Shown here one piece after another: positions 1 to 498 of a stretch of 25,350 bases of DNA. Position numbers and translations under genes: made by a program. The stretch spans positions 1 through 25,350 of the IMG/VR virus record IMGVR_UViG_3300025131_000385, one strand, 5' to 3'. Each line of letters opens with the position of its first letter. The stretch's first letter is position 1. The notes under the pieces are model-generated. The model was not told the origin of the DNA, made no database searches, and saw nothing but the letters and a program-made list of their open reading frames with translations. Source of the DNA: a virus.

Positions 1-154
1 TAACCACCCATAAGACTGCCCATAAATCTGAACATCCTAACCATTGAGCTACCTTAGCAATAAACAGACCAGCTGCTATATGATAGGATGTCCAATGGTC
101 AAGTTGACCACTTGAAAGTTGCCAATTGACAAATTTTGCAATTGGACTATTCAT
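1..154 (-). CDS. small membrane protein, partial (cut by window start)
   Basis: This reading frame starts with ATG at 154-152, two bases after the stop of the preceding 37-aa gene, and stays open for 51 codons to the edge of the window, so its C-terminus is missing. The visible protein begins MNSPIAKFVNW. It has a Trp/His-containing amphipathic opening and then mostly hydrophobic segments (AAGLFIAKVAQWLG, then DLWAVLWVV), which suggests one or more membrane helices. I do not recognise the family. Its position after two other tiny secreted or membrane genes suggests a small membrane-active module such as a holin-like or envelope-modifying protein, but that is inference only. No strong ribosome binding site is visible; translation is probably coupled to the gene before it. 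Confidence 0.6.
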   Translation of the reverse strand, partial: MNSPIAKFVNWQLSSGQLDHWTSYHIAAGLFIAKVAQWLGCSDLWAVLWVV

Positions 155-156
155 GA

Positions 157-270
157 TTAGAATCCAGTTAATACGCCGGCACTTGATGCCCAACCGGCTA
201 CTAAAAATCCAACCACAAATCCAATCACTATTCCCCAAATTTTATCGAGGTGTTTCTTTAAAAAATCCAT
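157..270 (-). CDS. 37-aa single-pass membrane protein
   Basis: A 37-residue frame starts at ATG 270-268, one base after the TAA of the lysine-rich 64-aa gene, and ends with TAA at 159-157. A GGGGG run at 280-284, nine bases upstream and inside the end of the previous gene, serves as ribosome binding site. The protein has a short charged N-terminus (MDFLKKHLDKIW) and one Gly-rich hydrophobic helix at about residues 12-35 containing GFVVGFLVAG, a GxxxG-type helix-packing pattern. It has no catalytic residues. Its size and topology would fit a small phage membrane protein such as a holin-like or accessory lysis peptide. I know of no named family that matches, and function is unassigned. The frame and binding site make it likely to be real despite its length. 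Confidence 0.6.
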   Translation of the reverse strand: MDFLKKHLDKIWGIVIGFVVGFLVAGWASSAGVLTGF

Positions 271-271
271 T

Positions 272-466
272 TTATTTAGCCCCCTTAAATTTGCTAAAGA
301 AGCCTTTTTTCTTCTTTTTGCCTTTCTTAATCTTCTTCTTCTTACTCTTCTTCTTCTTCTTTATTTCTTCCATTCCAGCACTATTGTTCAAATCACTAGC
401 TTGTACAGGTGGAACAGCCGCAAAAAAGATTAAAAGGGAAAGTACCCATTTGATTATATTTTTCAT
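272..466 (-). CDS. exported lysine-rich 64-aa protein
   Basis: ATG at 466-464 is preceded by a very good AGGAG ribosome binding site seven bases upstream, so this small gene is convincingly real. Residues 1-24 form a classic signal peptide: KN and a Lys at the front, a hydrophobic core LSLLIFFAAV, and a cleavage site after VQAS. The mature part has a short neutral linker (DLNNSAGMEE) and then about 30 residues dominated by lysine, with runs such as KKKKKSKKKK and KKGKKKKK, ending GFFSKFKGAK. The product should be a short, extremely basic peptide delivered to the periplasm or cell surface. Binding to lipopolysaccharide, DNA or the inner membrane is plausible; no family is known to me. It is followed immediately by two tiny membrane-protein genes. 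A TATATTTATT element lies in the gap upstream. Confidence 0.72.
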   Translation of the reverse strand: MKNIIKWVLSLLIFFAAVPPVQASDLNNSAGMEEIKKKKKSKKKKIKKGKKKKKGFFSKFKGAK

Positions 467-488
467 AATAAACTCCTATTGTTATGTT

Positions 489-498
489 AATAAATATA
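489..498 (-). promoter_or_regulatory. candidate promoter element TATATTTATT
   Basis: On the minus strand the 32-base gap 467-498 contains TATATTTATT, 22 bases before the start codon of the lysine-rich gene. The identical 10-mer occurs in the gap at 24166-24175, and a one-base variant at 3091-3100. These are the only three gaps above 30 bases in the window. Promoter function is inferred from position only. Confidence 0.35.

Follow-up and report, generated by a model that had tools for sequence, protein, structure and literature searches.

A small, Lys-rich protein of 64 aa, encoded in a 25.35-kb viral record (the window, by which we mean the whole stretch of DNA that was analysed), is best explained as a secreted polycation of host origin that would be reused late in infection as an envelope-disrupting, disruptin-like lysis factor. 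We put this reading at slightly short of an even chance. Counting for it are a gene under selection, a constant tail, synteny on host chromosomes, relatives in lysis cassettes, and a late-promoter-like motif at the copy in the window. The features concerned are given in Table 1. The window also contains baseplate-like genes and a late-sigma-like gene (phrog_234, E 2e-6), and no endolysin was recognised in it.

Table 1. Features of the window that bear on the Lys-rich gene and its neighbours
Feature	Position	Strand	Remark
Window	25.35-kb viral record		T4-like marine myovirus; almost every gene on the minus strand
Late-promoter-like motif ATATTTAT	490..497	minus	31 bases before the ATG of the 64-aa gene
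RBS AGGAG of the 64-aa gene	473..477	minus	before its ATG; from sequence
Gene for the 64-aa exported Lys-rich protein	272..466 (466-272)	minus	signal peptide, acidic linker and cationic tail
Gene for the 37-aa single-helix membrane peptide, GxxxGxxxG	157..270 (270-157)	minus	ORF and five near-identical relatives
Third gene, 5' part (51 codons)	1..154 (154-1)	minus	truncated at the window edge; its relatives have 96-100 aa

A preliminary description of this DNA had reported three clustered small open reading frames, and all three exist as described: on the minus strand, the gene for the 64-aa protein is followed after 1 base by that for the 37-aa peptide and, after 2 more bases, by the third gene. 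The good ribosome-binding site claimed for the first gene is present, and the claimed signal peptide is predicted as MKNIIKWVLSLLIFFAAVPPVQA, with cleavage between VQA and SDL. The GxxxG motif of the 37-aa peptide was likewise confirmed, since its predicted helix has G13xxxG17xxxG21. To call the mature half of the 64-aa protein essentially polylysine was a slight overstatement of a genuine richness in Lys: of the 41 residues predicted to remain after cleavage, 19 (46%) are Lys, and the net charge is +16. A short acidic linker, SDLNNSAGMEEI, precedes the cationic tail, most of the Lys lies in the last 29 residues, and the C-terminal end reads GFFSKFKGAK.

A scan of viral contigs with the whole protein gave 69 relatives, a scan with the tail only matched at least 120 stretches, and at least 156 distinct relatives were gathered for the family. 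Among 34 relatives of equal length, pN/pS was 0.27 overall; the tail had a lower value (0.19) than the signal peptide (0.41), pS being near saturation, and both Lys codons, AAA and AAG, occurred in 17 of 18 Lys columns. The mixed Lys codons together with the low pN/pS indicate that the protein is conserved, and not a DNA repeat. The gene is therefore real and under selection, and its tail is under purifying selection. Across the wider family, a nearly fixed tail of the form K6-GKK-xxx-GKKKKKGFFSKVFGSK is attached to many unrelated signal peptides, and most members have V, L, I or A at -3 and A at -1 of the predicted cleavage site. Since the tail is constant while the N-termini vary, the tail appears to be the working part. 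A second tail type, ending in WGNWKSKWKKKK, is sometimes found as a tandem neighbour of the first. Met-rich linkers were considered as metal-binding elements, and this idea was dropped as the linkers are not conserved. Searches of isolate phages (near-DNA and protein) gave nothing useful for the Lys-rich or the third protein, searches of Pfam, PHROG and solved structures gave no credible family for the Lys-rich protein, and searches of the literature available to us found no description of its family.

The preliminary description had proposed that the three genes form a lysis or envelope-disruption module. For the Lys-rich protein this proposal gained ground, both from relatives found in lysis cassettes and from the late-promoter-like motif. 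The cassettes occur in a second, non-T4-like group of phages with unrelated tail-fibre-type genes, where the Lys-rich protein lies among small membrane proteins and an endolysin in the order lipoprotein, transmembrane/coiled-coil protein, small transmembrane proteins, Lys-rich protein, endolysin. A search with M15 and GH108 profiles gave 51 rows within 4 kb of a Lys-rich gene, all 51 on the same strand; after removal of duplicates, at least 40 distinct Lys-rich genes lay within 3.5 kb of an M15 or GH108 endolysin. The identity of the endolysins was supported by PHROG and Pfam (phrog_465, E 1e-37 to 1e-41; phrog_315/PF05838). In the mostly non-T4-like group, as roughly delimited by N-terminal sequence, 25 of the 52 copies with enough downstream flank were near an endolysin, against about 15% expected (P ~2e-8, a value that ignores kinship and treats related sequences as independent). 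Nine copies of this group directly adjoin the endolysin, and in several contigs the endolysin gene starts at or within the end of the Lys-rich gene. The cassettes occur with several different signal peptides and with both endolysin types, and such recurrence, in two phage lineages, is a stronger point than the P value. Spanin-like candidates (weak phrog_739 matches) are also found in the non-T4-like cassettes, so the polycation need not be the sole outer-membrane factor. The transmembrane and coiled-coil protein of one such cassette (L136:8555-8875), itself weakly spanin-like (phrog_739, E 0.015), and its relatives end in a Lys run, FSWGKKKKK.

In the T4-like lineage, which includes the window, the connection with lysis is weaker. 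Only 3 of 67 T4-like copies have an endolysin nearby, and many sit before a baseplate-hub gene; both observations weigh against a role in lysis. Two T4-like contigs (L033 and L014) have the order two-helix protein, GH108 endolysin, hemolysin-like coiled-coil protein, Lys-rich protein. A holin-spanin set elsewhere in the genome had been named in the preliminary description as evidence against its module. In G015, which has the three genes in the same order as the window, a holin (phrog_3427, 1.9 kb upstream) and a GH108 endolysin (22 kb away) were recognisable, but a spanin pair was not. Five long T4-like contigs were put through a simple screen, which unusual spanins would escape, and likewise gave no clear i-/o-spanin pair. 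A motif found de novo, ATATTTAT/TATTTATA, is over-represented in intergenic DNA, among other places ahead of tail-sheath- and capsid-like genes. Of the 60 distinct T4-like copies of the Lys-rich gene, 19 have this motif at most 70 bases away, compared with 9.2% of all genes (P = 4e-6). This enrichment of a late-promoter-like motif makes late expression of the T4-like copies likely. The T4-type sequence TATAAATA, considered as the late promoter, is rare in these genomes.

The T4-like neighbourhood also holds an exported, beta-rich-looking protein of 429 aa, lipoproteins, a thioredoxin-fold protein and pilin-like proteins. The 429-aa protein (L071:8365-9654 and relatives) has a beta-barrel-like C-terminus (GLNYQFVGW), often comes directly after the third gene and matched no Pfam or PHROG family; the exported thioredoxin-fold protein (L071:10274-10648; PF00085, E 6.7e-7) is from the same phage neighbourhood. 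In T4-like phages of the window's group, up to four type IV pilin- or pseudopilin-like genes stand in a row, usually downstream of the third gene (L156:4107-4553, PF07963, E 1.6e-7; also L073, L079, L091 and records G009, G017 and G018). A membrane protein with a Popeye/cyclic-nucleotide-binding domain was found at L156:6867-7517 (G015 126867-127517; PF04831, E 2.6e-13; PF00027, E 8e-16), and its look-alike in sequence, G017:C1:63874-64524, lies directly before a GH108 endolysin.

As a fixed trio, the proposed module was rejected: the 37-aa gene is seldom present, and the third gene often lies apart from the Lys-rich gene. Five distinct, near-identical forms of the 37-aa peptide were found, in a few T4-like contigs and always downstream of a Lys-rich gene; the peptide is an occasional passenger. 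Among 54 testable copies of the third gene, a Lys-rich gene was nearby in 33 and directly upstream in 13. The trio is thus a frequent association and no fixed module, and the 37-aa and third proteins are predicted membrane proteins that accompany the Lys-rich protein part of the time.

The third protein is highly conserved across both lineages, with 34 of 96 aligned positions invariant, and in the second lineage it is found near lysis genes. Its structure was modelled as a four-helix membrane protein (mean pLDDT 89; helices 4-15, 22-38, 43-65 and 73-95). Holins are small membrane proteins with up to three transmembrane helices, encoded next to the endolysin. No holin family in Pfam or PHROG matched the third protein, and in our judgement its invariant H25, E58, E61, D83 and E87 are odd for a holin. 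Other identities were also considered: an impression of a VanZ/DUF2238-like protein was unsupported, with no significant PDB match in Foldseek; heliorhodopsin scored 18.2 bits in Pfam, under the cut-off of 26.7; and VIA-align returned only photosystem PsaL-like rows (Z ~7), a common helical arrangement. A host origin of the third gene was set aside after a search of 245 genomes of the Marinimicrobia phylum, run without a positive control, gave no match.

What the preliminary description had overlooked is that the Lys-rich family also belongs to the host: Marinimicrobia chromosomes carry it at a conserved locus. A genome scan with the single protein, which was not exhaustive and whose listed matches say nothing of other phyla, gave one match among those listed, in a Candidatus Neomarinimicrobiota MAG. 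On that contig, as judged from reading the sequences, the gene is flanked on one side by a GldG-like/ABC-transporter cluster; the other side holds genes for an exported 294-aa protein and for leucyl-tRNA synthetase. Within the phylum, 19 of the 245 genomes matched at E <= 0.01, several of these matches being longer proteins that share just Lys runs. A tail-bearing gene lies beside the same ABC cluster in nine Marinimicrobia genomes, and in seven of these it is also accompanied by the exported protein and then leuS, so that the family occupies a conserved chromosomal locus in a plausible host, as a host-derived auxiliary gene would. A second host paralogue, with the tail KKKKWGKKK...GFWSWFGGK (KKAKKGFWSWFGGK), has its own conserved locus in four genomes (L330, L332, L333 and L334), and both paralogues occur together in G160 and G161. 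The start of this second paralogue, MKNKLKWLLSFALIFSVVTPISAMDLDNSDGMEEVKKKK, strikingly resembles that of the window protein, MKNIIKWVLSLLIFFAAVPPVQASDLNNSAGMEEIKKKK, and the style of signal peptide and linker is common to both. The shared host locus and the likeness of the paralogue suggest that the family was apparently captured from Marinimicrobia rather than invented by phages, and that Marinimicrobia are the likely hosts of the window phage. The exported 294-aa host protein was ruled out as a homologue of the 429-aa phage protein, as there is no similarity between them. In a set of exported Marinimicrobia proteins of ~530 aa (L312, L317, L319, L321, L325, L327 and L328), the signal peptide is followed by a long stretch of Lys and Ser; these proteins have the C-terminus WEKSLEIKPDNNESKGWLILSS in common and are unrelated to the Lys-rich protein in their tail.

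Under the lysis reading, a late promoter would drive synthesis of the 64-aa protein, Sec would export it and signal peptidase I would remove its signal peptide. Through its Lys runs and Phe-containing end, the resulting peptide of ~41 aa, with a net charge of about +16, would attach to anionic lipid, either in the outer membrane or on the outer face of the inner one. By analogy with the phiKT disruptin, holin and endolysin may first open the inner membrane and the wall, after which the peptide would weaken the outer membrane. Host genomes keep the same protein on the chromosome beside leuS, and normal amounts of it therefore cannot be very toxic, which counts against a lytic function; a host gene family with a conserved locus also argues against a simple dedicated toxin. 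A further point on this side is that the tail does not exceed shuffled sequences in helical hydrophobic moment.

The lysis reading has one main rival, namely that the protein serves the envelope as an auxiliary gene product and has no part in lysis. In that case, the phage would supply extra Marinimicrobia periplasmic polycation until other proteins lyse the cell, and this would either stabilise the envelope or alter the surface against superinfecting phages. The conserved host locus beside the exported ~300-aa protein and leuS, T4-like neighbours that form an envelope set rather than a lysis set, and the position of most T4-like copies away from endolysins all fit such a role. However, in the second lineage the gene repeatedly adjoins an endolysin gene, which does not fit, and the late-promoter-like motif is at odds with exclusion of other phages, which would better suit early expression. 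We regard this alternative as unlikely on balance, and as the closest competitor of the lysis reading.

The abutting or overlapping of the Lys-rich gene and the endolysin gene in several contigs could instead indicate a polycation that attaches to anionic peptidoglycan or to the endolysin and thereby favours cutting of the wall or release. Such a helper function is improbable, given that the endolysins belong to two unrelated families and that most T4-like copies are far from any endolysin. The positive-inside rule favours yet another topology, in which an uncleaved N-terminal helix anchors the protein and the charged tail remains in the cytoplasm, binding nucleic acid, ribosomes or the inner membrane face. 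Although the tail end KKGFFSKVFG resembles the membrane-targeting sequence of E. coli MinD, KGFLKRLFGG (PMC5471200), signal-peptidase-like sites are kept across many unrelated signal peptides and the hydrophobic moment of the tail is not significant despite the similar pattern, making this topology the least probable of all.

An open question is by what means the outer membrane is opened in phages that have no recognisable spanins (PMC12819732). We tentatively suggest that the Lys-rich proteins may form a new class of lysis factor, in which a secreted polycation taken from the host combines a fixed Lys/Phe tail with swappable signal peptides and has been recruited into lysis cassettes by unrelated phages of an uncultivated phylum. 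If true, this could explain rupture of the outer membrane where recognisable spanins are lacking. As a candidate the family is specific, widespread and easy to synthesise, and the host chromosome supplies a natural control; the family also connects two uncultured marine phage lineages to Marinimicrobia (SAR406), whose phages are little known.

Three known systems invite comparison. The MinD membrane-targeting sequence and the Lys-rich tail have FLKRLF and FFSKVF, respectively, both next to Lys; the MinD tag is carried by an ATPase, whereas the other is on an exported polylysine protein and its amphipathicity is weak. Spanins (Rz/Rz1, u-spanin) may share with the Lys-rich protein a role in the outer-membrane step of lysis. 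Unlike spanins, the Lys-rich protein has no lipobox Cys, periplasmic coiled coil or C-terminal transmembrane helix; only the Lys-rich tail follows its signal peptide, and no spanin was matched in Pfam or PHROG. Disruptins are phage-encoded antimicrobial peptides that replace spanins (PMC12819732), and the example in Escherichia phage phiKT, gp28, is a protein of 56 aa whose gene overlaps the end of the endolysin gene, gp27. gp28 has no signal peptide, is described as an amphipathic helix and has 11 K/R and 4 D/E (net +7). The Lys-rich protein differs in its signal peptide, more strongly charged Lys-run tail, weak helical amphipathicity and host-chromosome homologues. We do not class it as a disruptin, because its tail showed no amphipathicity above that of shuffled sequences and its function is inferred. 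Like gp28, it is nevertheless small and strongly cationic, and many of its relatives are encoded in a lysis cassette, even though most T4-like copies lie elsewhere.
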